Below are positions 23,149 through 42,938 of a stretch of DNA of 54,446 nucleotides, in pieces. Origin of the DNA: Phycisphaerae bacterium (GTDB lineage: Bacteria > Planctomycetota > Phycisphaerae > Phycisphaerales > Phycisphaeraceae); assembly GCA_030432595.1 (NCBI GenBank), contig JAUIGU010000026.1, positions 1 through 54,446 on the forward strand, written 5' to 3'. Below the pieces are notes generated by a model that was given only the letters and a program-made list of their open reading frames with translations, had not been told where the DNA came from and made no database searches. Both the position numbers and the translations under genes were made by a program. Numbering within the stretch: the first letter of the stretch is position 1; each line of letters starts with the position of its first letter.

Positions 23149-26061
23149 TCAGGCGGCCCGGCGCCGGAGAGACAACACCGCCAACCCCGCCAGCACCCCG
23201 AACCCCGCCGGCTCGGGCACCACGCCCGGATTCACCGCGAAGCTCGGCGCACTCGTGCTGCCCCAGTTGAGCAGCACACCGTCCAATTCTGTCTGCTCGA
23301 TCTGGCCGTCGGGCAAGTCGTTGCTCCATCCGTCCGGCACGCCTTGGGTGTCGGTCTGCCGGCCCCAGTTGAGCAGCACCAGGTCCAGGTCGCCCTGTTC
23401 GACTTGTCCCGAGCCGTTGTAGTCGCCTAGCACACCATCGACGAGAGCTTGGGCCATCATGGTCCAGGTTGCGAGGGTTTCGTAGTCTTCGTCGCCAAGA
23501 ACCCGTTGCAGGAACACAGTGTCGTCAATCGCCCCGATTTCTAGATTCTGTGTGTCGTAAGGATTACCAGTAGCAAATGCGGTATCCCATTCTCCGCCAG
23601 GAGTCGAGGCGCCAAAAAGTGAAAACACTTGATATCCGGCAACCTGTATAGTGAGCGCATCAAGCTGTGACAACGATAGAGCATCAAAAGTTCCGTATGT
23701 CCAAGCTTCTTCGCCTTCACCAATCATCAAGGCTGCGTCATAAATAACTGCGACATCATCGATTTCGGAAGGCGAGTCAAGGAAATGGCTTTTAACGGGG
23801 TTAAGGGGGTTTCGACCCAACTCGATACTAAAAATTCCGGATTCGTCATCCTCCTCATCCCACGCCCCGTGTTTAATATTGTTTTCCTCCAAAGCGCTGC
23901 CTTTGTATCGTCCCGCGTACCGCTTTGCGTGATAAATGGGATTGTGATCTACTAAATAAGAATAATAGCCAGCGAACTGACCATTCGTATCATAGCGCAC
24001 TCGTTTGCTTACCGCATTTATAAATTCAGGCATCGAAGAAGGTGTGTAATCTAGGACTTCCGAGTCTGATGGGTCAACAGATGTGTCAGGCTCGACATGG
24101 AAAAGACCAATCGCATGTCCTATCTCGTGGGCCACTACTTCTGAGATGAAATCCAGTCGCTGTTGAAGCAGCAAGTCATCCGAAGGGCGAAATACAAACA
24201 CCTCATCGGCATTTCGCTTATTAAAGCGATCGACGTCACCACTGATCAGTTTTCCAGCAATATTTGTGCCCGTAATTTGGTCGGGCAGGTACACGGTAAT
24301 ATTTGCTAGGTCACGATTGTCAGTAAACTCAAAAAAATGCATGCCTGATCGCTTAAATATTTCAGTAACTCGATTTTTTAGATCCGCTTTTGTGTTAACG
24401 GAAAGAGGCGTGCCTTCCATACTTCGCTCGCGCAGCAGAACATGGCGGGCTGAGTCGATCCAACCAACAGCTTTAGTCTCAACTCGATATGGGGTATCTA
24501 GACCATCAGCCAAGAAAATTTTAGTCGTATCGCTCTGAAACCGCACCGCATCAGTCAGGCCTATGCCCTGTTCGCCGTTTGCAAGGCGATACTGAAACGC
24601 AACTGACCCGAGGTCGTTAATGCCACTCTGCTCGTTGGGGACATGGCCAGCACCGCCGCCACTCCCGGAGAAACTCAGCGATTGGATCGTACTGCCGCGA
24701 AACGGTTGACCGGTCCGTGCTATTTCGCGGAGGCTGCCGCCGGGCTCATAAAAAAACAAGCCGTTCTCGCGAACAGAAGACCCGTTTCCGAGATCAGTAT
24801 CGACTCGAAACTCAAAAGCAACTTGACCCGCGTTATTGATGGCGAACGGCCCACTGCTACTTGCGAACGTTCCGCCGTTGGGCGCGCTCATTTCTTGCAA
24901 AGCAATCGTTTTAATTGCACCCCCGTCCCCCATGAACAGGCCCGCGATCGTGCCCGAGCCGGTCGATTGCTCGACGGTGTCGGCCATGAACAAGACATCG
25001 CCGCGATCATTCATGTCCGTGACGGTGGACCACCCGCTCCGAAGCTGGTCACCGCTGTTACCGATTGGATCACCGTGACGGGCGATGACGATCGGAGTTG
25101 TTCCGGGGTCTGCCCTGTAGATACCACCAAATGTGTTGATACTCTGGGCTCTGGCTTGACCGTAAAACGAAACTTGCCCGGCATTGTTGAGCGTTGGGTT
25201 GTAAAGACGGTCGGTGAAGGTCGCTTCTTCTTCGGTGTCCAAAGGGTCCGCGGGTTGGAGCGGAGGTGCCGGATCGTTGTATCTCACAACTTTAGAATTG
25301 CGACCCGCGCTGTTGATGAAGATTCCGTAGTCCGGAGAGGCAATCCCACCTTGAATCTCGGCCCCAAAAACGATATCACCAGCGTTGTTGATTGCAGACG
25401 GCGGAAAAACCTCCTCATAGGTGCCGACACCATTGGGAACTGAATCACCTTTCCGAACAACTTCAATCAGGTCCTGATTGGGGCCATCGAATCGGTAAAT
25501 GCCTTCGTCGGTGGTGCTGCCGCCGGGCGAATCGATAATGCTAGCCCCGACGGCGATTTGGCCACCGTCGTTAATTCTCGGGTTTATTCCACGTGAATAG
25601 AGACTCCCACCCCCCGGTGCTTCGTCGTAGCTAAGTAGTACTTTTTCCACCATTCCGTCGATCTGGGTTGCGGTGTATAGCCTTGTGGTGATACCTCCAA
25701 TCCGGAGTTGACCGCTGAATGTAGGAATGCCGGCGTGTGAAACGGGGGGAGGTCCGTTGAACGTTTGATACCGGCCATCCGAAAACGGAACCGTCATGTT
25801 TCCGCGGGCAATCTCGTCAAGTTGCAGACTGTTTACGCCGGGCGTCGCGAGTGTCAGCAAACGCGGGCCAATGACTGCATTATCCAAGTAGCCTGTAAAC
25901 GCGATTTGCCCAAGATTGTTGAGTGACGGCACACCGACGGTGTCGTAGGTTCCGTCTCCGGTCGGGCTTTGGTCTCCGGAATGAACGAGAACGTTGAACT
26001 GGGCCAAAGCCTGACACTGCAAGCCGAGGATGAATAAGGCTAGACTGATCTTGTTCTTCAC
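23149..26061 (-). CDS. secreted metzincin-like metalloprotease with NxxGxxAF repeats, dockerin-like units and PEP-CTERM tail
   Basis: About 970 aa. The GTG at 26061 is preferred over a TTG at 26094 because GGAG precedes it by 10 nt and it gives a compact signal peptide (KNKISLALFILGLQCQALA). The N-terminal 480 residues hold about seven tandem units of the type N-x-x-G-x-[IV]-x-F (NNLGQIAF, NNAGDIVF, NNAGQVSF, NDLGSVAF), typical of NxxGxxAF choice-of-anchor proteins. A zinc-protease domain carries HEIGHAIGLFH at residues 645-655, the complete metzincin HExxHxxGxxH site. Then come two dockerin-like units ending LLNWG and a VVPEP sorting tail. It is probably an exported, surface-sorted protease. 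The body has clearly lower GC than its neighbours while the last 100 codons match the host. A hybrid origin is discussed in the findings. Confidence 0.85.
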   Translation of the reverse strand: MKNKISLALFILGLQCQALAQFNVLVHSGDQSPTGDGTYDTVGVPSLNNLGQIAFTGYLDNAVIGPRLLTLATPGVNSLQLDEIARGNMTVPFSDGRYQTFNGPPPVSHAGIPTFSGQLRIGGITTRLYTATQIDGMVEKVLLSYDEAPGGGSLYSRGINPRINDGGQIAVGASIIDSPGGSTTDEGIYRFDGPNQDLIEVVRKGDSVPNGVGTYEEVFPPSAINNAGDIVFGAEIQGGIASPDYGIFINSAGRNSKVVRYNDPAPPLQPADPLDTEEEATFTDRLYNPTLNNAGQVSFYGQARAQSINTFGGIYRADPGTTPIVIARHGDPIGNSGDQLRSGWSTVTDMNDRGDVLFMADTVEQSTGSGTIAGLFMGDGGAIKTIALQEMSAPNGGTFASSSGPFAINNAGQVAFEFRVDTDLGNGSSVRENGLFFYEPGGSLREIARTGQPFRGSTIQSLSFSGSGGGAGHVPNEQSGINDLGSVAFQYRLANGEQGIGLTDAVRFQSDTTKIFLADGLDTPYRVETKAVGWIDSARHVLLRERSMEGTPLSVNTKADLKNRVTEIFKRSGMHFFEFTDNRDLANITVYLPDQITGTNIAGKLISGDVDRFNKRNADEVFVFRPSDDLLLQQRLDFISEVVAHEIGHAIGLFHVEPDTSVDPSDSEVLDYTPSSMPEFINAVSKRVRYDTNGQFAGYYSYLVDHNPIYHAKRYAGRYKGSALEENNIKHGAWDEEDDESGIFSIELGRNPLNPVKSHFLDSPSEIDDVAVIYDAALMIGEGEEAWTYGTFDALSLSQLDALTIQVAGYQVFSLFGASTPGGEWDTAFATGNPYDTQNLEIGAIDDTVFLQRVLGDEDYETLATWTMMAQALVDGVLGDYNGSGQVEQGDLDLVLLNWGRQTDTQGVPDGWSNDLPDGQIEQTELDGVLLNWGSTSAPSFAVNPGVVPEPAGFGVLAGLAVLSLRRRAA

Positions 26062-26376
26062 GATCGTGGTGCTCCGGTCTTTCGCTGCCGACAATTTTGG
26101 TGTGCTTGAATGATAACCCTAGGATGGCAGGCCGATTAATTTGTGACGGTTTTAAATCTAGCGTTTGGTGCCGGGCCGGGTGCCACGCTTCACCGCAGGT
26201 GATGTGTGCGAGTGACATGCCACGTCGTGTCTTGGAGTGAGGCCAGGCACCCATCGACCGCGCCCCTGAAACCGGCGAGATGTGCCACCTGACGTTTCGC
26301 TTCTATCGCGTTGATGTTGGCCGCCGAAAGACCGTCTGTCGCCTCCGACCGGTTGGCGGTCGCTTCCTACGGTCGG
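26062..26376. other. non-coding stretch upstream of the metalloprotease gene
   Basis: This stretch is AT-richer near 26090-26160, where the protease promoter probably lies. A segment at 26170-26230 contains GTGCCACG-type words and a small TCACC/GGTGA hairpin that look repeat-like. No open frame here is convincing. Confidence 0.4.
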
Positions 26377-26540
26377 CCTTTCGCCATCGACAGGGGAGCC
26401 GTGGCGACCGACGCCTCATCCGTGGCGACCGATGACTCGTTTTCCGCTTCCGGAAGGAAATCTTTCGCCACCGATGACCTTTCTTTCGCTTCCGATGACT
26501 TGTCTTTCGTGACCGATGGGTTGTCTCTGACTTCCGGGGG
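26377..26540 (+). repeat. degenerate 21-bp tandem repeat tract
   Basis: About seven imperfect 21-bp units (one is 24 bp) run in tandem, with recurrent words such as ACCGATGAC, CTTCCGATGAC and TCTTTCG. Because the unit is a multiple of three, the plus-strand frame reads as heptapeptides of the type ATDDLSF, ASDDLSF and VTDGLSL, ending GGGYAR with a stop at 26554-26556. The frame starting at 26311 (81 aa) has no clear ribosome binding site, so I treat the tract as a repeat rather than a confident gene. The last unit contains the 11-bp motif described elsewhere. Confidence 0.7.
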
Positions 26541-26789
26541 AGGGTACGCCCGATAAGGTCGGGCATCCGGGGGCGGGACACGGGGCGGGTGCGGGTTTTT
26601 CGGGATTTGCGGGTGAGCGGGGTTGCGACGGTGAAGTCGGTGGGGTGGTTTGGCGATGAGGGGAGTGGCCCCGAATGGGCGTGGCCGCGTGGCTGCGTTT
26701 GAGTCGTTCACACGGCGGGGCTGGACGCGTCGGCTCGAGGGGCCGGCCTTTCCGGGAATCATGTCAATGCCCCTCGGGAGAGTTGCCTC

Positions 26790-27545
26790 ATGGCTAGAGA
26801 TAGCTTGTCGGCGATGTCGGATTCGGGCCTGCGGGACTGGATCCTTAACTTTGTGTCCGTGCTCGAGGCGGCCCCGCTGGGGCCCAGTGAGTTCGGGTTG
26901 TCGGCCGAGCTGGCCGCGGCCGTGATCAGTGCGAGCGGCGTGTACGTCGCGGCGTACGCGAAGGCCAACGAGGAGGCGACCCGCGGGCCGCTGTCGATCC
27001 GCGAAAAGGACGAGGCCCGTGATTCGTTGTTGAAGGTGGCTCGGGAGGCCGTGGCGGTGATCCAGGCGAACCCGGACACCACCAACAACCAGCGGCAGGC
27101 GCTGCGGGTGAAAATCCGCGACACGACGCGCTCCGTCGTGCCCCCGCCCAGTGTGGCCCCGACACTGCTCGTGACGGGCGTGCTGGGCAACGTGATCTCG
27201 GTGCGGATCAAGGACAGCACGGACCTGAACCGGCGGGCCAAGCCCGAGGGCGTGAACAGCACGACGCTGTTTTACGCGGTGGGCGAGGCGCCCCCGGCCG
27301 AGCCGGAGGGCTGGACGTTCAGCGGGACGACGAGCAAGACGAGCACGCAGGTGCAGCTGCCGCCTGGCACGGCGGGCGGGACATCGGTGTGGTTGATTGC
27401 GTTTTATGCAAACACGAAAACGCAGTCGGGGCCGCCGAGCGTGCCGGTGCAGACGTGGACGCAGGTGACGGCGTCGAATCCGGCTCAGCCGGACGGCGGG
27501 ACGACGCTGGGTGCGGACGAGCAGTCGCCGCGTTTGGCGGCGTAA
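26790..27545 (+). CDS. conserved hypothetical with helical N-terminus and FN3-like C-terminus
   Basis: A 251-aa protein. The ATG at 26790 has GGGAGAG about 7 nt upstream. Residues 1-110 are helical with the phrase DWILNFVSVLEAAP, Ala-rich helices and an end of the type VIQANPDTTNNQRQALRVKIRD. Residues 115-220 are beta-rich, with a WTFSGTTSKTSTQVQLPPGTAGGTSVWLIAFYANTKTQSGPPS pattern (two neighbouring pieces here) that resembles a fibronectin type III fold. There is no signal peptide. I recall similar proteins from planctomycetes and verrucomicrobia annotated only as hypothetical, often near low-complexity repeats. A structural, phage-tail-like or contractile-particle role is conceivable but not supported by neighbours. 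Confidence 0.7.
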   Translation: MARDSLSAMSDSGLRDWILNFVSVLEAAPLGPSEFGLSAELAAAVISASGVYVAAYAKANEEATRGPLSIREKDEARDSLLKVAREAVAVIQANPDTTNNQRQALRVKIRDTTRSVVPPPSVAPTLLVTGVLGNVISVRIKDSTDLNRRAKPEGVNSTTLFYAVGEAPPAEPEGWTFSGTTSKTSTQVQLPPGTAGGTSVWLIAFYANTKTQSGPPSVPVQTWTQVTASNPAQPDGGTTLGADEQSPRLAA

Positions 27546-27555
27546 AGCCAAGTCC

Positions 27556-27582
27556 GAAGTTCGAAGTTCGAAGTTCGAAGTT
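27556..27582. repeat. 7-bp tandem repeat (GAAGTTC)x4
   Basis: Four consecutive GAAGTTC units, the last with one change, lie 10 nt after the stop codon at 27545. Two adjacent units contain the palindrome GAACTTCGAAGTTC-like word. It starts the repeat-rich 312-nt gap before the GNAT gene. Confidence 0.8.
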
Positions 27583-27649
27583 GAATACGTGTGTGCCCCG
27601 GCTCGTGAGAGCGGGTCGGGGCGGTTGGTTTGGTTGATCAGGCAGGTTG

Positions 27650-27814
27650 CACCACGGAGAGCACAGAGGGCCACGGAGACGGGTAGGGAGTTTTTTGACG
27701 CGATGTCCAGGCACTGCGTTTCGAACCCTGTCCATCCGGTTCATCCTGTCTAAACGTTCTTCTTCGGTTTTTTTCTTGGTGTCGTCTCGGTGGCCCTCCG
27801 TGTTCTCCGTGGTG
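27650..27814. repeat. palindromic intergenic element A (31-bp imperfect terminal inverted repeats)
   Basis: Left arm 27650-27680 and right arm 27784-27814 match as inverted repeats at 28 of 31 positions; both are built on the word CACCACGGAGA. The core holds the complement of AGGATGAACCGGAT at 27734-27747, nearly identical to a word in element C. It has no coding capacity, so it looks like a MITE-like or REP-like unit. It fills most of the gap 27546-27857. Confidence 0.75.
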
Positions 27815-27857
27815 AATCTTCTCTCTGTGATTGTTCCTTTTCCGGAAAGGTTGAACC

Positions 27858-29201
27858 ATGTCGGACTTTCAGATCGTGGACCCCTTCGAACCGCGCCACC
27901 TGCCGGCGAGCCACGCGGCACCGTTATTGCGCCCACTTCCGGGGGCGGGGATTGATTTCGACATTCGGCCGGGCACGGTGGACGACATCCCGTGGATTGA
28001 TGCGTTGCAGAAGGAGCACAAGCGCGGCCTGGGGTTCATGCGCTTCGGGGAACTCGAAGGGCATTTGGAGAAGGGGCACGTTTACGTCGCGGTCGCGACG
28101 GGGCTTGAGGCTCGAGTGATGAGGGCTGAGGAAGACGCGACCGATTCGAGCCTCAGGCCTGACGCCTCAAGTCTCAAGCCTTCGCGCATCGCGTACTGCA
28201 TCGCGGCGGACCGGTACTACCAGCGCGACGAGGTCGGGCAGGTGTATCAGATGTGTGTTCCCCGGAAGTATCAGCGGCAGAAGATCGGGGCGAATTTGTT
28301 GGCGAAGGTGTGGGCGACGTGGCCGCGGGGCGTGAAGCTGTGCGGGTGTTGGTGTGCGCAGGACCTGGAGGCGAACCAGTATTGGGAGGGCTGCGGGTTC
28401 ACGGCCGTGGCGTTCCGGGCGGGGTCGCGATACGCGAGGGGGGCGAAGAAGGGCGAGCGGCGCATCCACATCTATTGGCAGAAGCGGATCCGGTCGGGCG
28501 ATGGCGAAACCCCCCTGTGGTACCCGAAGCAGACTTCCGGGGGCGCGATGAACGAGGCGCGGATCGTGTTTCCGATCCCCCCCGGAAGTTCTTGGAGAGA
28601 TGCGAAGCCCGCCGTGTACCCCGGGGTGGAGGAGCTGTTCGAGAAGATCGCGGCCGAGCGCGAGGCGAAGGCGAAGCAGGTGCTTCTTCAACTCGCGCCT
28701 CCAGAAGGCGCGGAAGGAGCGGAGCCGAAGCTGAGCAGGGCGGAGCGGCGGAAGGCGGAGCAGGCGGGCAAGGCCCAGCGCGACGCGAAGCGGGAGGAGG
28801 CCGAGTTGCGGGACGCGACGGCCGCGGGCCACGGCGGTTTGCGGCTGGGCTGGAACGCGGCTCCCCCGGAAGTGGTGCCGACTGAGGAAGAAGTCGCGGC
28901 GCAGGAGAAGGCGCAGCGGCAGGCGAGCAAGCGGGCGCTGCGCGAGGCGAAGCTGAACGCCAAGGCGGCGGCGAAGAAGGCGGCCAAGGCGCTGCGCAGC
29001 CAGAACGACCCGGTGCTGGTCGCGGCGGCGCGGGACCTGCGCGACCGGTGGATGGAGGCGGTGCAGCAGGACCCCGGAATGTTGTCGTTGGCGAGCGAGG
29101 AGAGCGCGGGGGCGCGTTACGACGTGGCGCGAGTGATCGAGGATGCGCCGGTGGCAAGCGGGGTCAGGCGTGTGGAGAATGTGAGGCGGTTGGCGGCTTA
29201 G
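27858..29201 (+). CDS. GNAT-like acetyltransferase domain fused to long charged coiled coil
   Basis: A 447-aa protein with GGAAAGG upstream of the ATG. Residues 30-215 resemble a GNAT fold: DFDIRPGTVDDIPWIDALQK, then the acetyl-CoA-loop region RKYQRQKIGANLLAKVW, then ANQYWEGCGFTAV, the standard late GNAT motif. A palindromic repeat has been inserted in frame at residues 82-108. Residues 250-385 are Lys/Glu/Ala-rich, mostly helical and highly charged. A separate C-terminal module (about 391-430) has ARDLRDRWMEAV and ARYDVARVIE blocks, and a frameshifted copy of this module lies at about 30049-30155. The substrate is unknown. The charged helix suggests binding to nucleic acid or another protein. 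Confidence 0.72.
   Translation: MSDFQIVDPFEPRHLPASHAAPLLRPLPGAGIDFDIRPGTVDDIPWIDALQKEHKRGLGFMRFGELEGHLEKGHVYVAVATGLEARVMRAEEDATDSSLRPDASSLKPSRIAYCIAADRYYQRDEVGQVYQMCVPRKYQRQKIGANLLAKVWATWPRGVKLCGCWCAQDLEANQYWEGCGFTAVAFRAGSRYARGAKKGERRIHIYWQKRIRSGDGETPLWYPKQTSGGAMNEARIVFPIPPGSSWRDAKPAVYPGVEELFEKIAAEREAKAKQVLLQLAPPEGAEGAEPKLSRAERRKAEQAGKAQRDAKREEAELRDATAAGHGGLRLGWNAAPPEVVPTEEEVAAQEKAQRQASKRALREAKLNAKAAAKKAAKALRSQNDPVLVAAARDLRDRWMEAVQQDPGMLSLASEESAGARYDVARVIEDAPVASGVRRVENVRRLAA
28102..28180. repeat. palindromic repeat inserted in frame inside the GNAT gene
   Basis: Ends GGCTTGAG (28102-28109) and CTCAAGCC (28173-28180) are exact inverted repeats, with further imperfect pairing inside (words such as GGCTCGAG and CGAGCCTC). 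The 79-bp element adds about 26 residues between two predicted strands (AVATG before, RIAYCIA after) without breaking the frame. Confidence 0.7.
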
Positions 29202-29342
29202 GAAATAATCCGAGCAATAAATAATCCGCAGATGACGCTGATGCTGCACCGTGAGAAGAGCGTCGGCAGACGATTTTCTCGGTCGGATACTATGGCCTGC
29301 TCGGTGGACGTACTGCCGAATGAGTGCGATCCATTGATTGTG

Positions 29343-29870
29343 ATGAAGCGAAGGGACTTTGCCGTGATTCAATGGCAGTATTACCCCAAATCGGATGCCG
29401 CCCCTGCGATCGTTGATACGGTCGTTTCCGCGTTCAAAGCGGTTTCTGATTCAATTGATTCATCTCAACACAAACTCGACAGCAACGGCGTCCTTGCTGC
29501 GATCACGACACAACTCTTAGATGCGGGTTTCAGGGTCGAAACCGGGAAAAAAGCGGCCGACAAGATACCGGTCCCGGTGTTGTTTGGCCTTAACGGCCAA
29601 CTCGAAAAAACGTTCGACGCGGACGCCTTTCACGTTGAAGCTGGATTCGTCCTTGAGGTAGAAGCCGGCCGCGCTGTCGCCAACAACCAGTTTTTGAAGG
29701 ACCTGTTCCAGGCGTGCATGATGCACGACGTCACACATCTTGCCATCGCGGTCCGAAATGATTATCGCGGTTCGCCCGACTTTGACAGGGTGCTTCGGTT
29801 CTTCGACACGATGTACGCAAGCAATCGACTCGTGTTGCCACTGCACGGGATTCTCATTATTGGGTACTGA
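29343..29870 (+). CDS. orphan restriction-endonuclease-like protein (BglII/BstYI-like, tentative)
   Basis: 175 aa from the ATG at 29343; in-frame ATGs at 29292 and 29232 are alternatives, and none has a strong ribosome binding site. The N-terminus (RDFAVIQWQYYP) is followed by helical sequence, then KIPVPVLFGLNGQLEKTFDADAF and GFVLEVEAGRAVANNQFLKDL, with acidic residues placed like a PD-(D/E)xK-type active site (Asp, then E-x-E). The end is a strand-rich block finishing LHGILIIGY. This recalls the BglII/BstYI restriction enzyme fold. No methyltransferase gene is adjacent, so it is either a solitary nuclease, an inactive relative or a defence remnant. Base composition is visibly less GC-rich than in neighbouring genes, consistent with horizontal transfer. 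The family assignment is tentative. Confidence 0.5.
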   Translation: MKRRDFAVIQWQYYPKSDAAPAIVDTVVSAFKAVSDSIDSSQHKLDSNGVLAAITTQLLDAGFRVETGKKAADKIPVPVLFGLNGQLEKTFDADAFHVEAGFVLEVEAGRAVANNQFLKDLFQACMMHDVTHLAIAVRNDYRGSPDFDRVLRFFDTMYASNRLVLPLHGILIIGY

Positions 29871-29958
29871 TGCCTCGACGTACGGCTGCCACTAACCTGA
29901 CGGGTCTCAGTGGGCAAGGGTTTTTGAAGGGTGAAGCGGTTGGCGGCGTGAGAGTTGG

Positions 29959-30343
29959 ATGAGACTGTGGGAATTTTGGGGTTGTGTGCGCCTGCGCGGC
30001 GGGCGGTCAGGGGCGGTGCCCCCGACACCCCCCGAGCAGGAGGCGTTTGCGCGGGAGTTGAAGGGGCGGTGGTTGGAAGAGGTGGGGGGCGCGGCCGGCG
30101 CTGCTGGAGGATTTGGAGGGGCGGGCGAAGTGCGACGTGCGGCGGGCGCTGGAAGTGCCCCCGGAATTTTTGGCCCCGCTCCCGGCAGTTCCGCCCCCGG
30201 AAGTACTGCCGCCGGAAGTTTTGCAGCTGCGCAAGGAAGCCTTGGCCCGTATTCAGACGCTCAGGGGTTTCGGGGTGGCGACGTCTGACGGTGGGCGGCG
30301 TGACGGTGTGGGCGGCGCGGCCGGGAGGCTTGGGTTTCGCTAA
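29959..30343 (+). pseudogene. frameshifted remnant of the GNAT protein C-terminal module
   Basis: Frame 1 encodes ARELKGRWLEEV at 30049-30084. After a G6 run (30084-30089) the matching sequence continues in frame 2 with LLEDLEGRAKCDVRRALEV from 30101. Together these align with ARDLRDRWMEAV and ARYDVARVIED at the end of the GNAT gene product. The shift is consistent with one G gained or two lost. Frame 2 then reads a Pro/Glu-rich PPPEVLPPEVLQLRKEALARIQ tail containing one 11-bp motif copy. The start contains dispersed hairpin repeat copy 3. It could instead be two short real frames, but the split homology favours a decayed gene. The rest of the gap 29871-30402 shows nothing else. Confidence 0.55.
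29990..30031. repeat. dispersed hairpin repeat, copy 3 (diverged)
   Basis: Begins with the same GCCTGCGCGGC as the copies at 22197 and 23100, then diverges (GGGCGGTCAGGGG). A GGGGC/GCCCC stem is retained, so the loop and outer pairs have changed while a hairpin remains possible. Confidence 0.55.
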
Positions 30344-30402
30344 TCTGCTGCGGTGCCCACGGCCTTGGACCCGTCTTGACGCCGACTCACCGAAATCATC
30401 AC

Positions 30403-33123
30403 ATGGACAATCGAACCCGTACGCGTGCGAACACGGTGTGGCTGCTCGGGTTGACCGCGCTCGTCGCCGTCGGGTTGGAGGTTTTTACGATGGCGCAGCC
30501 GATGTCGGAGCCGTTGCCTGTTGAATCGCCGCGGGTGAACCTGGCCGTGGCGGCCGAGCCTTCGACGTCTTACGTCAGTGGCCACGAGACCTTGGGCGCG
30601 ATCCAGGACGATTTCGCGCCGCGGACTTCGGGCGACCGGGACCACGGGGTCTACGGGAACTGGCCGCGGCAGGGCGAGCAGTGGGTGCAGTACACCTGGC
30701 CGCGGCCGATCACGACGGACGGCGTGGGTGTGTACTGGTTCGAGGATCGACAGGGCATCCGGCTGCCGGCGTCGGCCCGGCTTGCTTGCCTGGACGGCGA
30801 GCGGTGGCGCGACATCGACGTGGCGGTCGGCACGGAAGGCGACACGGAGAACGTTGCGCGGTTCGAGCCGGTCACGACGGAGGCGCTGCGGCTGTACTTC
30901 GTGGGGCGGGATGCGTTCTCCACGGGCATCGTTGAGTGGCGGGTGTTTGACGAGGGCTCGTCGCCGGCGTTCGCGCCCAAGGTCGATGCCGGCGGCGACC
31001 GGGTCGTGGTGATCGGCGACCGCACGCACCTGCGGGCGCAGACGCGCGGGACCGGGCAACAAGGCGTCACCGGCGCGTGGTCGAAGGTGGACGGTCCGGG
31101 GGAGGTGGCGTTCAGCGCGGCCGATTCGACGGTGGCCGCGGCGACCTTCACCGAGCCCGGCGGCCACGTGCTGCGTTACACGGCGAGCGCCGGCGAACAC
31201 GCATCGCACGACGACGTCAAGGTCACGGTGCGTCCGCCCCTCGCGGCGTCGGGGTTGCGGCCGGTCGCGACGCGGCGGTACACGCTCGACAGCGCGTTCT
31301 GGGAGCCGCGGCTGCGCAACACGATCATCAATTGGATCCCGCACGTCGTGGCCAAGTGCGAGGAGGCGGACCTCAAAGAGGGCGGGATCAACAACCTGCT
31401 CGACGCGGCGGCGAAGCTGCGCGGCGAGCCGCACGAATACCACCGCGGGTACCCGTTCTCCAACGCCTGGGTGCTGAACACGCTCGAGTCGATGTGCGTC
31501 GCCCAGATGCTGGACCCCAAAGGCGATGAGCAACTCGCCGAGGCGCAACAGAAACTGCGGGAGAAGATCGACGAGTGGGTGCCGATCGTGCTCGCGGCGC
31601 AGGAGCCGGACGGGTATTTCCAGACGCGCTACACGCTCGGCCGACGGGAGAACGAGAACCCGCAGCGTTTCTCGGCCGGGCTGCGCCGCGACCACGAGGG
31701 CTACGTGGCCGGCTACTTCCTGGACGCGGCGGTCGCGCATTACCGCATGACCGGCGGTGCGGATCGGCGGATGTACCACGCGGCGAAGAAGCTGGCCGAC
31801 TGCTGGGACGCCGCCATCGGCCCCGAGCCCGGGAAGCAGCCGTGGTGGGACGAGCACGAGGGCATGGAGCTGTCGCTGTTCCGCTTCGCGCGGCTGGTGG
31901 ACGAGGTCGAAGGCGACAACGCGGGACAGACCTACCGGGACTTGTCGAAGTTTTTGATGGACTGCCGCGGCGTCCACGGCACGGGCGCAACTTACGACCA
32001 GGCGCACGTGCCGGTCACGCAGCAATACGAAGCGGTGGGGCACGCCGTCCGCGCCGTGTATCTCTACACCGGCATGGCCGAGGCCGCGCGGTACTACGAC
32101 GACGCGGCGTACCAGTCGGCCGTGCTCTCGCTCTACGAAAACCTCGTCCACCGCAAGTACTACGTCACCGGCGGGATCGGCAGCGGCGAAACGTCCGAAG
32201 GCTTCGGCGAAGACTACTCGCTGCCGCACCACGCATACTGCGAGAGCTGTTCCGGCGTGGGCGAGATGTTGTTCCAGCACCGGCTGCAACTGCTCACCGC
32301 GCAAGCGAAGCACGCGGACCTGCTCGAGGAAACGCTGTACAACGCCGTGCTCAGCGATTTGGACCTCGAGGGCCAGAACTTCACCTACACCAACCCGCTG
32401 GCCACCGACGACGAGCGCTACAAGTGGCACGTCTGCCCCTGCTGCGTCGGCAACATCCCCCGCGCGTTGCTCATGCTGCCCACGTGGACCTACACCACCG
32501 GCGAAAGCGACCTGTTCGTCAACCTCTACGTCGGCGGCACGATGTCCGTACCGTCGGTCGCCGGCGCGGCACTCACCGTGAATCAAGAGACGGACTACCC
32601 GCGCGGCGGCAACATCAAGCTTACGCTTCGGCCGGACAAACCCGCGGAGTTCACCGTTCACTTGCGCGTCCCCGACCGCAGTGTTAGCGACCTTTATCAC
32701 AGCGAGCCCGCGGTCGGCGGTCTTGTGGCCTTGACGATCAACGGGGAAGCGGTGCCCTTGGAAGCAGAATACGGCTACGCGTCGATCACCCGGACGTGGT
32801 CGCCCGGCGACACCATCGAATTCGAACTGCCGATGCCGGTGCAGCGGGTACGGACGATCAAGGAAGTCCCCGCCAACCGCGGTCTGGTGGCGCTGCGACG
32901 CGGGCCGCTGGTGTTCAGCTTCGAATCGGTCGATCAGGACCTGGACGCGAGCTTGTCGCCGGACGCCGAATTGAACGCGGCCTACGATCCGGACCGGCTC
33001 GGCGGCGTGATGACCGTGCGCGGCGCGTTCGAGAACGGCGCACCGTTCGTCGCGATCCCCAACTACGCCCGCAACAACCGCGGCGGGCGCTCGACGGTGT
33101 GGATCAACGAAGTCGGCGACTGA
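30403..33123 (+). CDS. secreted GH127 family beta-L-arabinofuranosidase (DUF1680)
   Basis: 906 aa from the ATG at 30403, preferred over a TTG at 30376; a hydrophobic export segment covers about residues 15-33. Residues 45-190 look like an F5/8-type carbohydrate-binding domain and 195-275 like a PKD/Ig-type domain. The GH127 (alpha/alpha)6 barrel follows (LRNTIINWIPHV, GYPFSNAWVLNTLESM, EPDGYFQTRYTL). The zinc/thiolate site known from HypBA1 is intact: E614-S-C616 and C678-P-C680-C681, with Cys680 as probable nucleophile and Glu599 or a neighbour as acid/base. These enzymes release L-arabinofuranose from plant glycans such as arabinan or hydroxyproline-linked arabinosides. The CE12-like esterase at 0.4 kb could act on the same pectic material. 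Confidence 0.88.
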   Translation: MDNRTRTRANTVWLLGLTALVAVGLEVFTMAQPMSEPLPVESPRVNLAVAAEPSTSYVSGHETLGAIQDDFAPRTSGDRDHGVYGNWPRQGEQWVQYTWPRPITTDGVGVYWFEDRQGIRLPASARLACLDGERWRDIDVAVGTEGDTENVARFEPVTTEALRLYFVGRDAFSTGIVEWRVFDEGSSPAFAPKVDAGGDRVVVIGDRTHLRAQTRGTGQQGVTGAWSKVDGPGEVAFSAADSTVAAATFTEPGGHVLRYTASAGEHASHDDVKVTVRPPLAASGLRPVATRRYTLDSAFWEPRLRNTIINWIPHVVAKCEEADLKEGGINNLLDAAAKLRGEPHEYHRGYPFSNAWVLNTLESMCVAQMLDPKGDEQLAEAQQKLREKIDEWVPIVLAAQEPDGYFQTRYTLGRRENENPQRFSAGLRRDHEGYVAGYFLDAAVAHYRMTGGADRRMYHAAKKLADCWDAAIGPEPGKQPWWDEHEGMELSLFRFARLVDEVEGDNAGQTYRDLSKFLMDCRGVHGTGATYDQAHVPVTQQYEAVGHAVRAVYLYTGMAEAARYYDDAAYQSAVLSLYENLVHRKYYVTGGIGSGETSEGFGEDYSLPHHAYCESCSGVGEMLFQHRLQLLTAQAKHADLLEETLYNAVLSDLDLEGQNFTYTNPLATDDERYKWHVCPCCVGNIPRALLMLPTWTYTTGESDLFVNLYVGGTMSVPSVAGAALTVNQETDYPRGGNIKLTLRPDKPAEFTVHLRVPDRSVSDLYHSEPAVGGLVALTINGEAVPLEAEYGYASITRTWSPGDTIEFELPMPVQRVRTIKEVPANRGLVALRRGPLVFSFESVDQDLDASLSPDAELNAAYDPDRLGGVMTVRGAFENGAPFVAIPNYARNNRGGRSTVWINEVGD

Positions 33124-33180
33124 CCCGACGAGCGGGCGGGCGGATCGTGGGTCACCGAGCGCGCCGAACCTGACGCTGCC

Positions 33181-36100
33181 ATGACCACGCCGCGCGACGA
33201 CCAACCCGAAGACTATTCGTCGCTCGCAGACGACCGCATCGACGCCGCGATGTCCGCGGATCAACCGGCGCTGCGCAGCTTGGCGTCGCGTATCCGCAGG
33301 GCCCGACGCGACGGCAAGCCGCACGACCGCAACCTCCGCCGCTTCCACGAGCAACTCGCACCCTCGATCGAGCGCCGCGAGGCCCGCGCCGCGTCCCGGC
33401 CGACGATCACGTACCCCGACGAGCTGCCGATCTCGCAGAAGCGCGACGACATCTCGGCGCTGATCCGCGAACACCAGGTGGTTATCGTCTGCGGCGAAAC
33501 CGGCTCGGGCAAGAGCACGCAGCTCCCCAAGATCCTGATGGAACTCGGGTTCGGCACGGCCGGGACCATCGCGCACACCCAGCCGCGCCGCATCGGCGCG
33601 CGCACCCTCGCCACGCGTGTCGCCGAGGAACTGAACGTCCCGCTGGGGCAGCAGGTCGGCTACGCGGTGCGGTTCAACGACACGTCGGGCCCCGACACGT
33701 TGGTCCGCTATCTCACCGACGGCCTGCTCCTGGCCGAACTGGCGCGGGACCGCGACCTGCTCGCCTACGACGCGATCATCGTTGACGAAGCGCACGAACG
33801 TTCGCTCAACATCGACTTCCTGCTCGGCTACCTCAAACAACTCCTGCCCCGCCGGCCCAACCTCAAGCTCGTCATCACGTCCGCCACAATCGACCCCGAA
33901 CGCTTCGCCGAACACTTCGGCCACGGACAAGGCGACACCATAGAACCCGCCCCGATCATCGAGGTGTCCGGCCGCATGTACCCGGTCGATGTGCGTTACC
34001 GCCCGCTCGTTGAAGACGACGAAGAAGTATTGGAAGGTGCGGCGCTGGACCACGCACTCTGCGCCGCGCTCGACGAAATCAATACGGATACGGACGGCGA
34101 CGTCCTGGTCTTCATGCCGACTGAGCGCGCGATCGGCCAGGCGGCGAAGGTGTTGCGCGGGCATGTGCAAAGCTCCCCGAAGTTGTCCCGCGGCAAGCCG
34201 GTCGAGGTTTTGCCGTTGTACGCCCGGCTTTCCAACGCGGAACAGCAAAAGGTGTTTCGGCCGACGGGCCGGACGCGCCGCGTGGTCATCGCCACCAATG
34301 TCGCCGAGTCGTCGGTGACCGTGCCTGGCATTACGGCGGTGATCGACCCGGGCACCGCGCGGATCAGCCGGTACTCACCGCGCACCCGTATGCAGCGCCT
34401 GCCCATCGAGCCGGTCTCGCAGGCCTCGGCGAACCAGCGCGCCGGTCGTTGCGGACGCGTCGCGCCCGGCGTGTGCATTCGGCTGTGTTCGCAAGAGCAG
34501 TTCGCGCAGCGCGAAGCGTTTACCACGCCCGAGGTGCTGCGGACCAGCCTCGCCGCGGTGATCCTGCGGATGGCGGCGCTGAAGCTGGGCGACGTCCAGG
34601 ACTTCCCGTTCCTCGAACCGCCCCGGTCCGCCGCGGTCCGCGAGGGTGTGCAGACGCTGCGCGAGCTGGGCGCGGTCGAACCGTCGGGCCGACTTACGAA
34701 AACCGGACATCAACTCGCGGCGCTGCCGATCGATCCGCGTGTCGGCCGGATGGTGATCGCCGGGGCAGAAGAGAACTGCCTCGCCGAAGTCCTGGTGATC
34801 GCCTCGGCGCTCGAAGGCCAGGACCCGCGCGTCCGCCCGATGGAGCACGCCGCCGCCGCCGACCAGGCCCACGCCGCATTTAACCACCCCGACAGCGACT
34901 TCCTCACCCTGCTCAAGCTCTGGGACTTCCTCCACGAACGCAAAGCGGCGCTGTCGAACAGCCAGTTCCGCAAGCTCTGCCCGAAGCACTTCCTGAGCTA
35001 CCCGCGCGTGCGGGAGTGGTTCGACCTGCACCGGCAGCTGCACGACCTGGCCCGCGAAGCGAAGCTCAAAATCAAGCCGCGCCAATCCGGCGAAGACGGC
35101 ATGAACAAGATCGCCGACTCCGTCCACCGCGCGCTGCTGGCCGGGTTGCTGTCCAACGTTGCGCACAAGACCGGGGACCGCGAGTACACCGGCGCTCACA
35201 ACGTCAAGCTGCGCCTCTGGCCCGGCTCGGTGTTGGCCCGTGCCCGTCCGCGCTGGATCGTCGGGGCCGAGACCGTCGCCACCTCGCAGCAGTTCGCCCG
35301 CACCTGCGCCCGGATCGATCCCAAGTGGGTCGAGCCGATCGCCGGCGACCTCGTCACCCGGACCCACAGCGAGCCGCACTGGGACCGGCGGGGCGGGTTT
35401 GTCGCGGCGTTCGAGCGCGTCACGATGTACGGCCTCGTACTCACGCCCAAGCGACGCATCCGCTACGCCAAGGTCGACCCGGCCAAGGCCCGCGAGGTCT
35501 TCATCCACGAAGCGCTCGTCGAACAGGACGCCGACATCGCCGCGCCGTTCTTTTCGCACAACCGCGCCCTGCGTGAGGAGGTGGAAAGGCTTCAGGCCAA
35601 ACGGCGCCGGTTCGATCTGTTGGCCGACGCGCAGGTCCGCTTCGACTTCTACGACCGACGCCTCCCGCCCGAGGTTGTCGGGGTGCCCGAGCTGAACCGT
35701 TACCTCAAACAGGTCGAACGTGAAGACCCGCGACGTCTCTTCATGTCTGAAAACGACCTGCTGATTGCCGAGGATACGCAACGCGACACGCAGCCGGATC
35801 AGCTCGAAGTGGCGGGCATGAAGCTGCCGCTGGTCTACAAGTTCGACGCGGGGGCGGACGACGACGGGGTCACGCTGGAGGTGCCGCTGCACGCGCTCGG
35901 TCGGCTGACGCCGAGCGTGGTGGACTGGGGCGTGCCGGGCACGCTGATCGAACGCATCACCGCGCTCATCCGCAGTCTGCCCAAGGCGACGCGCAAGGCG
36001 CTGGTCCCCGCGCCCGGGTCGGCGGAGCGGGCGGCGGAACTCATTGCGTTCGGCGAGGGCGACTTCCACACGGCGGTCGCCGACGCGCTCGGCCGGGTGG

Positions 36101-37188
36101 CCGGCGAAATCATCGACCCGGCACAGTTCGACCTGAGCAAGCTCGAATCTCATCAACGCATGAATGTGGCGGTGATCGATGAGAACGGCGACCGCGTTGC
36201 CCAAAGCCGGAACATCGACGCGCTGCAGAACAACCTTGGCGCCAGATCGAGCACGGCCGTTGCCAAGCTCGTAGACCCGGTCTGGCACCGCGACGGACTG
36301 AAGGCGTGGTCCGAACTCCCGCACGCCGGCAAACTGCCGCCGCAGATCGAGACCACACAGCACGGCTTTACGCTGCGGGCCTACCCGGCGCTCATCGACC
36401 AGGGCGACGCCATCGGGTTACGCCTCGCGGAGACGCCGGAGCGCGCCGAGGCGTGGCACGCCGCGGGTGTGCTGAGGGTGTGCACGATCGACAGTGAGGA
36501 CGAAGTGATTCGGGCGTGGCGTGCCTGGCCCGACCGTGATCCGCTGCTCTTGTTGTTCAGTCCGTTGGGTGAGGCCGACCGCTTCGAAGCACAGCTCGTT
36601 CACCGGGTGTCACTCGACGTCTACCGACGACCCGTCCACGACTACCCGCCGCGATCGACCGACGCCTACGAGGCGTTGCTGTCCACCGGGCGATCCGAGA
36701 TCAAGCCGGCCGTGTACGCGGTGTGCGGCACGGCTCTGTGTGTGCTTCGTGCGGGCCAGAGCCTGCGACTCGAACTCGACGCGTTGAAGAATAACTGCCC
36801 GCCCGGGTGGGAGCCGGCACTTCGCCAATCGGTCGAGCAGCTTCGAGATCTCGTTTCGCCGACGTTCCTGCACGACACGCCGGCCGAATGGCTTGAACAT
36901 GTCCCGCGCTTCCTCGCTGCTTCCAGCGCCCGTCTTCGCAAGCTCCGCGAAGGCAAGATCGAGCGCGATGGTCAGGCCGCCGCGCAGCTCGAGGACCATC
37001 TCAGCCGGTGGCGTTCATCGCTGTCCACCGGACCCGACAACCCCGAAGGGGACCTGTACCGTTGGATGCTCGAAGAGTGGCGCGTGCAACTGTTCGCGCA
37101 GGAACTTGGCACGTCCATCCCCGTGTCGGAGAAGCGCCTCGACCGGCAATGGAGAAAGGCCGAACGTCAAGCATCATCGTCCAGATGA
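33181..37188 (+). CDS. hrpA: ATP-dependent RNA helicase HrpA (DEAH family)
   Basis: 1335 aa, close to the usual 1300 for bacterial HrpA. Walker A GETGSGKST is at 105-113 and the DEAH box at 202-205 (VDEAHERS). The SAT motif (ITSATIDPERF), a motif VI of the type QRAGRCGRVAPG and the helicase-associated and OB-type regions follow. The last 600 residues form the HrpA-specific C-terminal region (DUF3418-like). The enzyme unwinds RNA, and in E. coli HrpA has been linked to mRNA processing and to rescue of stalled ribosomes. It starts 57 nt after the arabinofuranosidase gene but is probably functionally unrelated. The last 22 nt overlap the convergent ccoS gene. Confidence 0.96.
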   Translation: MTTPRDDQPEDYSSLADDRIDAAMSADQPALRSLASRIRRARRDGKPHDRNLRRFHEQLAPSIERREARAASRPTITYPDELPISQKRDDISALIREHQVVIVCGETGSGKSTQLPKILMELGFGTAGTIAHTQPRRIGARTLATRVAEELNVPLGQQVGYAVRFNDTSGPDTLVRYLTDGLLLAELARDRDLLAYDAIIVDEAHERSLNIDFLLGYLKQLLPRRPNLKLVITSATIDPERFAEHFGHGQGDTIEPAPIIEVSGRMYPVDVRYRPLVEDDEEVLEGAALDHALCAALDEINTDTDGDVLVFMPTERAIGQAAKVLRGHVQSSPKLSRGKPVEVLPLYARLSNAEQQKVFRPTGRTRRVVIATNVAESSVTVPGITAVIDPGTARISRYSPRTRMQRLPIEPVSQASANQRAGRCGRVAPGVCIRLCSQEQFAQREAFTTPEVLRTSLAAVILRMAALKLGDVQDFPFLEPPRSAAVREGVQTLRELGAVEPSGRLTKTGHQLAALPIDPRVGRMVIAGAEENCLAEVLVIASALEGQDPRVRPMEHAAAADQAHAAFNHPDSDFLTLLKLWDFLHERKAALSNSQFRKLCPKHFLSYPRVREWFDLHRQLHDLAREAKLKIKPRQSGEDGMNKIADSVHRALLAGLLSNVAHKTGDREYTGAHNVKLRLWPGSVLARARPRWIVGAETVATSQQFARTCARIDPKWVEPIAGDLVTRTHSEPHWDRRGGFVAAFERVTMYGLVLTPKRRIRYAKVDPAKAREVFIHEALVEQDADIAAPFFSHNRALREEVERLQAKRRRFDLLADAQVRFDFYDRRLPPEVVGVPELNRYLKQVEREDPRRLFMSENDLLIAEDTQRDTQPDQLEVAGMKLPLVYKFDAGADDDGVTLEVPLHALGRLTPSVVDWGVPGTLIERITALIRSLPKATRKALVPAPGSAERAAELIAFGEGDFHTAVADALGRVAGEIIDPAQFDLSKLESHQRMNVAVIDENGDRVAQSRNIDALQNNLGARSSTAVAKLVDPVWHRDGLKAWSELPHAGKLPPQIETTQHGFTLRAYPALIDQGDAIGLRLAETPERAEAWHAAGVLRVCTIDSEDEVIRAWRAWPDRDPLLLLFSPLGEADRFEAQLVHRVSLDVYRRPVHDYPPRSTDAYEALLSTGRSEIKPAVYAVCGTALCVLRAGQSLRLELDALKNNCPPGWEPALRQSVEQLRDLVSPTFLHDTPAEWLEHVPRFLAASSARLRKLREGKIERDGQAAAQLEDHLSRWRSSLSTGPDNPEGDLYRWMLEEWRVQLFAQELGTSIPVSEKRLDRQWRKAERQASSSR

Positions 37189-37394
37189 TTTGCCGTAGTC
37201 TTGCCGGAGACCGACGTGGATTGTTCTGGGCTTCCTTTTTGTCGGTCTGTGCCCCAGTCGTCATCGAACACGGCGCGCATCGGCGGCGAGTCCATGTCGT
37301 CGAGTTGCCCCTTGCGGACGCTCCAGAGAAACGCGCCCAGCGCTCCCGCCGCCATCGCCAGCGCCAACGGGATCAGGAGATAAAGGACGGACAA
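37167..37394 (-). CDS. ccoS: cbb3-type cytochrome oxidase assembly protein CcoS
   Basis: A 75-aa protein with one N-terminal membrane helix (YLLIPLALAMAAGALGAFLW) and then the CcoS signature VRKGQLDDMDSPPMRAVFDDD, which follows the helix in the family. The start is a TTG at 37394 placed 1 nt after the ccoI stop, so it is coupled to ccoI. CcoS is needed for cofactor insertion into cbb3 oxidase. The tail after residue 50 is longer and more polar than in the shortest homologues. It is the last gene of the operon and overlaps the end of hrpA convergently. Confidence 0.9.
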   Translation of the reverse strand: MSVLYLLIPLALAMAAGALGAFLWSVRKGQLDDMDSPPMRAVFDDDWGTDRQKGSPEQSTSVSGKTTANHLDDDA

Positions 37395-37395
37395 C

Positions 37396-39951: not shown

Positions 39952-40831
39952 GGTCGTGCTCACTTTTGTCTTCGTTCGGTGCTTCGGCCTTGCCCGCGTC
40001 GGACAGCGCGCAGCACGCGGGCAAGGCAGACGACGCACCTGGCTCGGTCGGATCGTGGCGCGCTGCCTGCCTCGCCGTCACCGTGCCCGCCATCGCCACG
40101 GGGTCCAGTGCGAGGCGGTGCGAGACGGTCAGCGCCCCGATGACGATCATCGCCGCGCCGGTGACGAACGGCAGGCGTCGGCCCGCGATACCGAGCAGGC
40201 CTTGCAGTCCCACGCCCAGCGTCAGCAGGATCGGCACGGTGCCCAGCCAGAACGCGGCCATCACCAACGCGCCGTGAAGCGGTTGGGCGGTGCCCGCGGC
40301 GGCAAGCACGAACGCGTACAGCCAGCCGCAGGGAAGCAGGCCGGTACACAGTCCGATCACCGCGGCGCGCGGCACGGCGGGCCACGCCGTGGCTTTTGCG
40401 TGCGCTTTACCAAATGCGGCGCTCAGCCACGCCGGCGTGAAGGTGTGGTGCAGCCGGCCGCGCAGCGCCGGTGCCATCGTCGCGACGCCCACGAGCATGA
40501 TCGCCACACCCGCCATCACCGCCGCGACCGGTTGAAGGCCCGCGAGTACGCCGCCCAGGTTCAGCAGCCCGCCGACCGCGCCCGCTGCCGCGCCCAGCGC
40601 GGTGTACCCGAAGAGTCTTGCCGTGTGGTACGCCGCCTGAGGCCGGCAGCGCGACCACCACAGCGCGGTGCGCGTCGCACGGCCGAACCCGTCGCCGAGT
40701 TCCGCGAACGAAGCGCTGCCCGAGGTGCTTCGCCCAGCGACCGCACACGCCAACAGCGGGCCGCACATGCCGGCGCAGTGGAGCGAGCCAATCAGGCTCG
40801 CGACGAAGACCGCGGTCAATAGCGTCGTCAT
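39941..40831 (-). CDS. TauE/SafE-like (DsbD-2-like) membrane transporter of the cbb3 operon
   Basis: A 296-aa protein with about six membrane helices and the N-terminal Cys motif SLHCAGMCGPL, which with a later GLLPCGWLYAF block is typical of the family annotated sulfite exporter TauE/SafE or DsbD_2. Genes of this family frequently accompany ccoGHIS and are thought to move copper or reducing equivalents for oxidase maturation; sulfite export is unlikely here. The start overlaps the ccoH stop (ATGA) and the end overlaps ccoI. The tail is Asp/His-rich (SEHDHVH), possibly metal-binding. Confidence 0.85.
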   Translation of the reverse strand: MTTLLTAVFVASLIGSLHCAGMCGPLLACAVAGRSTSGSASFAELGDGFGRATRTALWWSRCRPQAAYHTARLFGYTALGAAAGAVGGLLNLGGVLAGLQPVAAVMAGVAIMLVGVATMAPALRGRLHHTFTPAWLSAAFGKAHAKATAWPAVPRAAVIGLCTGLLPCGWLYAFVLAAAGTAQPLHGALVMAAFWLGTVPILLTLGVGLQGLLGIAGRRLPFVTGAAMIVIGALTVSHRLALDPVAMAGTVTARQAARHDPTEPGASSALPACCALSDAGKAEAPNEDKSEHDHVH

Positions 40832-42884: not shown

Positions 42885-42938
42885 AGGGGGCTCACATTTG
42901 TTCCGCGATCGCGCGTGACGCGGTGTGCGGGGGGCGGT

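Follow-up and report, generated by a model that had tools for sequence, protein, structure and literature searches.

A 21-bp repeat array with FN3-like and GNAT genes forms an apparently undescribed gene unit of planctomycete bacteria, often found beside anti-phage systems

We analyzed a 54,446-nt stretch of DNA from a Phycisphaerae bacterium (GenBank assembly GCA_030432595.1, contig JAUIGU010000026.1, forward strand), hereafter the window, together with related loci in other genomes (G, C, L, and f numbers are our handles for genomes, contigs, loci, and families). The window carries a copy of what is apparently an undescribed gene unit of planctomycete bacteria, composed of a tandem array of short repeats, a gene for a fibronectin type III (FN3)-like protein, sometimes a small Ig-like gene, and often a gene for a GNAT protein with a coiled coil. 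Judged by sequence, this unit is characterized by a constant layout, an array period of 21 or 20 bp, proteins ending in Ala-Ala (-AA) in this bacterial order, a neighborhood in which unrelated anti-phage systems lie mainly on one side, and one clean exchange of defense cargo between flanks that are otherwise syntenic. We infer, with a probability of about 55%, that the unit functions as a platform carrying defense genes. The features of the window that bear on this reading are the following:

26315 to 26545, + strand: degenerate tandem array of 11 units with a period of 21 bp (coordinates computed from offsets)
26790 to 27545, + strand: P0003, 251 aa, predicted helical N-terminal part and fibronectin type III domain, ending SPRLAA
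27858 to 29201, + strand: P0001, 447 aa, predicted GNAT domain, coiled coil, and conserved tail, ending VRRLAA
28983 to 29198, + strand: C-terminal tail module of P0001, NDPxLVAxARELRDRWxExV...YDVxR...RLxAA
29232 to 29870, + strand: P0002, 212 aa, cargo gene without a recognized family, between the intact P0001 gene and the relics
29931 to 29951, + strand: tentative candidate for a vestigial gene end, GTGAAGCGGTTGGCGGCGTGA (VKRLAA, then stop), by direct reading and too short for proof
29977 to 30036, no strand assigned: interspersed DNA repeat severing the relic tail (nine matches in the genome, itself included)
30037 to 30144, + strand: module B, decayed remnant of the tail from a second GNAT gene, which belongs to another subclass; 1-nt insertion in a G6 run at about 30084-30089

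The layout of the unit is highly constant. Among the 24 loci with a strong match to the GNAT core (E ≤ 1e-26; L057, with 2e-4, was left out), 23 have a P0003 homolog directly upstream of the GNAT gene, which bears out the proposal of the first-pass annotation that the FN3-like gene is part of the system. At some loci a third small gene, read as Ig-like without a profile hit, lies between the two. For the array, 55 stretches upstream of FN3 genes (up to 4 kb each) were examined: a period of 21 was found in 32 and of 20 in four (R ≥ 0.55), the multiples 42 and 40 in 28 and four, respectively, and any other period from 13 to 44 in none or one. At R ≥ 0.5, 40 of the 55 FN3 loci have an array. Its unit sequence varies from locus to locus, and a coding repeat is made less likely by the existence of arrays with 20-bp units. 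Palindrome arms of at least 6 were present in 10 of the 40 array consensuses, compared with 2.7% of shuffled consensuses. In the window, the best 105-bp identity is 0.63 at lag 21 (0.53 for the best other period), and TRF reports a period of 21 at 26461-26518.

The arrays are also local to the FN3 genes. Twenty stretches of about 20 kb hold 16 arrays at R ≥ 0.6; no more than about 2.5 kb separates 14 of them from FN3, and one more is upstream of a second FN3 fragment. The distance from array to FN3 domain is 108-442 bp at 32 of 40 loci and 1.1-3.3 kb at the remaining eight, some of them with intervening genes. Moreover, the FN3 gene and the array occur at loci where no GNAT gene was found, other planctomycete families included: in families f20, f32, and f57 (G691, G410, G459, and G696), the best period was 21 or 42 at 16 FN3 loci, with arrays just upstream of FN3 and R ≥ 0.5 at 15 of them. 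No description of this unit was found among the titles and abstract openings listed from the open literature, a source that leaves most subscription journals outside, nor in the available portions of accounts of satellites or of repetitive extragenic palindromic (REP) repeats (PMC3733652).

By predicted fold and family profile, P0001 belongs to the GNAT superfamily. In Foldseek, its model aligned with structures of NatA/Naa10 and RimI (best E 2e-7), and Pfam Acetyltransf_7 matched at 2.5e-5, but with 25 bits against a cut-off of 27. In the model (pLDDT 72.8 overall, below 50 from residue 407), the fold is followed by an extended coiled coil, and the tail is predicted to be disordered. The acetyl-CoA motif region reads QRQKIGA, and RRSLVAA-like in others; the canonical first glycine is not kept. 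Five GNAT relatives (L054, L055, L056, L121, and L122) fit the GNAT portion of the profile and stop at position 314-360 of 404; they lack most or all of the tail, yet end in -AA. P0003 is, by its model (pLDDT 88.7), a helical N-terminal region followed by an FN3 beta-sandwich; Foldseek aligned it to many FN3 domains (E 4.4e-6 and weaker), and no Pfam FN3 profile matched at E ≤ 1. Against viral models its matches were nonspecific ones to FN3 proteins, for example tail proteins, and no match was found in plasmids or phages. For P0002, a search of 27 other loci found no relative, and plasmids gave no match; its earlier description as nuclease-like was an impression only, since no Pfam, NCBIfam, or PHROGs family rises above noise. 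None of the three proteins has a known function in the libraries searched.

The unit is multi-copy and patchily distributed. Of 121 genomes searched, 12, among them the window genome, contain relatives of P0001, and a single genome may have as many as nine matching stretches. A paralog with 42% identity lies on contig C11 of the window genome. A scan of named genomes gave 33 loci, of which 22 are labeled Phycisphaerae or Phycisphaerales, five Methylococcaceae or Vicinamibacteraceae, and the rest carry other planctomycete names; the two Vicinamibacteraceae labels look wrong (G062, this order). In viral contigs, 49 stretches fitted a pattern of P0001, none of them a relative. Within the order, 65 of 400 genomes have FN3 matches; for the phylum as a whole the figure is 12 of 392. 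Often no GNAT gene is in view.

To assess the neighborhood of the unit, ORFs (open reading frames) upstream of FN3 and downstream of GNAT at 34 FN3-GNAT loci were compared with PADLOC models (103 of 123 upstream and 113 of 131 downstream ORFs, mostly the shortest being left out). No downstream ORF came from L032, L050, L110, and L115 (0-0.4 kb downstream), so that 30 loci are represented on that side, and none came from upstream of L051. Matches to 321 PADLOC models came from the upstream ORFs, with HerA (2.6e-233) and SIR2 (1e-113) at the top, and to 36 from the downstream ORFs, the 25 listed being mostly of helicase type, with two ORFs per model. Sequence reading traced the HerA and SIR2 matches to L040 and L042 and those of the downstream helicases to L054 and L055. 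A defense system was recognized upstream at no fewer than 14 of the 34 loci:

L003: ApeA
L032: retron reverse transcriptase of type III-A, 7.5e-103
L036: Gabija, with GajA (7e-210) and a UvrD helicase
L037: HamB-like helicase, 6e-31, among the weakest of the 14
L039: cytosine methyltransferase and a type II enzyme
L040 and L042: HerA-SIR2
L046: weak type III enzyme, REase_III 1.6e-12, likewise among the weakest
L054: BsoBI and a methyltransferase
L055: ResIII and IIG
L056: EcoRI methylase and GmrSD/HNH
L099: Cas9
L100: PADLOC candidate with a caspase-like match
L107: methyltransferase-HNH set

In a Fisher test carried out before the retron locus L032 was added and with 32 downstream loci where 30 is correct, upstream exceeded downstream defense at 13/34 versus 2/32 (p 0.003) or versus 0/32 (p 6e-5).

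The clearest case of exchange is provided by G058 and G070, two genomes of one genus in which the same site is occupied by different restriction-modification (R-M) systems. On the left, synteny extends over about 11.5 kb, divided into three pieces with 86-88% identity. On the right, it covers 7.5 kb (80-84%), beginning near codon 11 of FN3, taking in the Ig-like gene and GNAT, and continuing into the genes that follow. Between the flanks lies unrelated DNA, 5.6 kb with a methyltransferase and BsoBI, followed by an ORF read as AbiTii-like, versus 8.4 kb with IIG-type genes and a ResIII helicase. The strongest periodicity within both exchanged segments is 21 bp (0.54 and 0.62), which suggests that the array moves together with the cargo. 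Of twenty FN3-only loci in family f2, eight show two FN3 genes flanking cargo, and the cargo matches PADLOC at seven of these eight, in a scan confined to the loci with two FN3 genes in view and to proteins chosen after reading. The matches comprise a candidate AAA/DUF3226 pair, R-M methyltransferases at two loci, IIG, ThsB with a partner, a PD-T7-4-like DUF4145 protein, and Old. Interchange of unrelated defense systems at one site is thus seen for G058/G070 and family f2, not for the window. The earlier suggestion of a rapidly turning-over accessory system is supported. The congeneric pair G019/G038 has a shared left flank and different cargo, but its FN3-GNAT genes differ, and it was not used as proof. 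For the unit of the window, a search for an empty site through orthologs of the gene at 33181 gave no synteny to its left among the best 40 tblastx matches in each of six genomes.

Several further observations concern the cargo itself. At L099:18-3437, a Cas9-like gene lies directly upstream of FN3, and no cas1 or cas2 was read between the two. A protein with helix-turn-helix (HTH), HNH, and AP2 repeats is found among defense cargo (L202:8315-10405, L209:7397-9532, and L165:4955-5710); in L202 and L209, this AP2/HNH/MerR-type protein has a C-terminal FN3-like part by reading and ends in -AA. A partial homolog of it lies upstream of HerA-SIR2 in G019. In addition, large cargo ORFs of 617-1322 aa that adjoin array-FN3 units have no Pfam or PADLOC match (L053:9929-12355, L096:341-3088, L110:1705-3555, and L210:2909-6874).

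Downstream of P0002, the window holds the remains of what appears to be a second unit. The 447-aa ORF at 27858-29201 contains ARDLRDRWMEAV...ARYDVARVIE close to its C-terminus, and the first-pass annotation had paired these peptides with ARELKGRWLEEV, encoded from 30049, and GRAKCDVRRALE, encoded from about 30119 in a different frame. Both pairs are where it placed them, and the second copy reflects real homology. With window 29201-30380 as the blastn query, L032 aligned with 83/108 identities (77%; E 2e-17), L045 with 63/72 (2e-19), and L046 with 59/73 (2e-13), each with one gap that corresponds to one extra base in the GTGGGGGG run of the window; the three aligned GNAT-gene tails, from the related genomes G001 and G038, are 77-88% identical to 30037-30144. 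A fourth alignment, to L049 (47/55 identities, 8e-12), does not reach the run, and its only gap is close to where the alignment begins. The frameshift is therefore real relative to three relatives, since L032, L045, and L046 are without the extra base. The origin proposed for module B, duplication of the local module, did not hold: the P0001 tail as a tblastn query (E ≤ 0.05) recovers itself in the window and not module B, which matches instead the tails of the 'FDPAQEAFARELKDRW' GNAT subclass (L032, in the same-genus genome G001, 76% over 34 aa, E 1.5e-9; L045, 5e-6) and must therefore be the relic of a different gene copy. Local duplication was rejected, and on sequence grounds module B is best described as the decayed 3' end of another copy of the multi-copy gene unit. 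The repeat at 29977-30036 has a 95% identical copy near the P0001 paralog on contig C11. That the second tail is intact apart from an error of assembly or sequencing at 30084-30089 is very unlikely: the extra base does fall in a G6 run and the genome is a draft of 73 contigs, but the interspersed repeat also severs the tail upstream, so that the gene is broken whatever the base count, and other copies carry internal stops as well.

The tail module had also been proposed as the core around which the system is built. It does recur outside P0001, as the orphan ORFs L033, L035, and L049; however, these look like relics left after loss of the remaining gene, L049 coming after a stretch like the 21-bp repeats and L033 adjoining a likely R-M gene pair (both by eye). 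Since short GNAT relatives and FN3-only loci with arrays are without the tail, this reading is extremely improbable, and we rejected it.

A second regularity concerns the C-termini. At these loci, every full-length FN3 protein (55 of 55) and all but two of the 42 full-length GNAT proteins (40) end in -AA, the two exceptions being due to a premature stop or frameshift; at FN3-only loci, 20 of 21 further closed FN3 ORFs do so, and the remaining one is a frameshift fragment. In the same DNA, -AA ends only 4 of 198 other genes, crudely called. The transfer-messenger RNA (tmRNA) tag of the window genome ends VRLAA, compared with VRRLAA in P0001 and SPRLAA in P0003. In 12 further genomes of the family the tags end RLAA (10), RMAA (1), or ALAA (1), and in four sister-family genomes ALAA. 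The last blocks of the P0001 and P0003 models have pLDDT of about 35-56, and the two models place the terminal Ala-Ala on a predicted exposed C-terminus, as in C-motif-1 of ClpXP substrates. By analogy, the -AA ends of the FN3 and GNAT proteins are weakly suggested to be degrons. An origin of the gene ends from tmRNA-derived DNA was rejected, the last two Ala codons of 13 tags being GCT or GCC and those of the genes mostly GCG-GCG. A strict match of tag and tail across genomes is only partial and not separable from descent: f1 tags end RLAA in 11 of 13 genomes and f1 GNAT proteins RLAA, RLDAA, RLEAA, LPAA, and others, and f5 tags end ALAA, alongside protein ends of LLDAA. The tags of this family (L058 and L061-L076) are long and mostly -RLAA rather than -ALAA, for example ANDNIAGRIGFDSPVRLAA.

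The unit resembles several known systems in part. As in integron gene cassettes, exchangeable cargo stands beside short palindromic repeats; here the 21-mers are contiguous, with one array per unit, whereas integrons have one repeat per cassette. Neither an attC-like site nor an integrase was noticed in the ORFs read, in the course of which no systematic integrase search was made. CRISPR arrays differ in that the 20-21-bp units here are contiguous, with no unique spacers between them. Type II GNAT toxin-antitoxin pairs likewise combine a GNAT fold with an accessory two-gene unit; here, the GNAT protein has about 310-540 aa with a coiled coil and mostly a tail, and its partner is FN3-like, not a ribbon-helix-helix or HTH protein. 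The ssrA-like ClpXP degrons, as far as described in the available part of PMC7652416, share -AA at a low-confidence (disordered) C-terminus, with RLAA as in the host tag, although the -AA here was seen only in this order. Short palindromes are common to REP/GTAG repeats, which the portion seen of PMC3733652 reports in planctomycetes too; those are dispersed elements, whereas the present ones form phased tandem arrays upstream of one gene family. The unit also resembles defense islands and hotspots, such as those surveyed in Escherichia coli (PMC10121019) and the Pseudomonas aeruginosa core hotspots (PMC10250203), in that a single site between constant flanks holds different, unrelated anti-phage systems. 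Here, in contrast, the edge is marked by a multi-copy, self-similar unit at several sites per genome; the edge of a hotspot is formed by core genes or a known mobile element, and here no recombinase was tied to the unit in a search that was not systematic.

Two other explanations for the data have to be weighed. One is passive co-residence, that is, FN3-GNAT units are accessory genes that collect in variable islands alongside defense genes with no functional link. The patchy distribution (GNAT in 12/121 genomes, FN3 in 65/400 of the order), the several copies that are relics or carry internal stops, and the 20 of 34 loci without an identified defense gene are in keeping with it. The one-sidedness of the association (321 upstream versus 36 downstream PADLOC models), however, is unexpected for a generic island, and the f2 cargo lies between two FN3 genes; we consider co-residence possible, if somewhat unlikely. 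Alternatively, the unit itself could be a defense or toxin-antitoxin system in which hairpin-rich array RNA controls the FN3 and GNAT proteins in a type III-like manner. Type III toxin-antitoxin systems also have a tandem array upstream of a protein gene, and the palindromic units, the frequent defense neighbors, and the GNAT fold would suit such a role. On the other hand, type III repeats are about 34-48 nt long and stand next to the toxin gene, whereas the present units are of 20-21 bp, variable in sequence between loci, and more widely spaced from the gene, the gap to the FN3 domain being 108-442 bp for 32 of 40 arrays and 1.1-3.3 kb for the other eight. Moreover, the gene that regularly comes next encodes an FN3-like protein with a helical region at its N-terminus rather than an endoribonuclease of the ToxN/CptN/TenpN type, and arrays are common at FN3 genes without GNAT. 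A type III-like system thus appears rather unlikely.

There are also observations that weigh against the defense-platform reading itself. At 20 of the 34 FN3-GNAT loci, the window included, no upstream defense gene was identified; at 12 of these, where one ORF was scanned singly, 10 gave no PADLOC hit and two only non-defense Pfam matches. Sampled loci in G691, G410, G459, and G696 have no obvious defense neighbors by eye, and the link with defense may thus not extend beyond this order. Arrays at R ≥ 0.5 are lacking at 15 of the 55 FN3 loci, most of which had ≤1.5 kb upstream, and three of which have an array farther up, before a second FN3 gene. In a cruder 1.5-kb test, 21 was the best period for 32 of 54 FN3 genes and also for 13 of 154 other genes at the same loci, some of which adjoin the same arrays. 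No repeat of at least 10 bases is common to the G058 and G070 cargo junctions, and a search that was not systematic tied no integrase or transposase to the unit. As to the C-termini, several FN3 proteins end in -AA directly after the last strand, closer than the minimum given in the published work as far as it was accessible, and the accessible part of PMC7652416 states that green fluorescent protein with LAA alone is not degraded in vitro. The -AA end is absent from all 16 FN3 proteins outside the order, so that it was rejected as a phylum-wide rule, and tmRNA tags outside the order (found in three of four genomes) end LAA or FAA. Finally, the last codons are GCG/GCA-GCG in 42 of 56 FN3 genes compared with about 30% internally, a nucleotide preference that protein selection alone does not predict.

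A length of 20-21 bp corresponds to two helical turns of DNA, and, if the unit is a defense-carrying platform, repeats so spaced could be bound on one DNA face by a dimeric or oligomeric protein, for which the FN3 protein, the GNAT tail, and the AP2/HNH protein of some loci would be candidates. The bound array might then act as a preferred site for gain and loss of the adjacent defense genes, as a means of their common control, or both. More weakly suggested is that a ClpXP-type protease would keep the FN3 and GNAT proteins scarce through their ssrA-like C-termini; their levels would rise once this route is saturated, by phage attack or translation stress, and the GNAT protein could then acetylate a target. 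The broadest version, a planctomycete-wide, recombinase-free platform in which a helically phased, palindromic 21-bp array read or bound by a dedicated FN3-like protein and an optional degron-tagged GNAT effector serve to gain, swap, and co-regulate anti-phage systems, and which ssrA-type proteolysis of the host holds off until ClpXP is saturated by phage attack or ribosome stalling, is in our view quite unlikely.

Some additional features of the window and the unit were recorded. To the left of the unit, 23149-26094 (- strand) encodes a 981-aa protein with a DUF7453 match (5e-61) and an end that looks PEP-CTERM-like; a second DUF7453 match is present among the ORFs upstream of FN3. Residues ~83-110 of P0001 form a variable GNAT loop with in-frame inserts that resemble short interspersed repeats; such inserts (e.g., REQSTVNSGEEGSAVDGSLFTNHSP in L040) differ in each copy and are absent from the short GNAT relatives. 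The 10-mer CCCCGGAAGT occurs eight times in the window (26530-43516; 0.06 expected), five of them inside P0001, and is a highly iterated word with 146 copies in the window genome (G000) versus four of the reversed control. As a genome-wide array unit it was rejected, since its copies are dispersed and mostly single in the nine regions shown.

The usual explanations for defense islands invoke phages, satellites, transposons, or core-gene hotspots. If the platform reading is true, a repeat-tagged, multi-copy unit that has no known relatives and predicts the places of defense genes would offer a new handle on how such islands form, and it would serve as a search marker for undescribed planctomycete defense systems, with P0002 of the window and the cargo in L053, L096, L110, and L210 as candidate genes. 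The unit would also provide a test case for proteins with C-terminal ends similar to the tmRNA tag of their own host.

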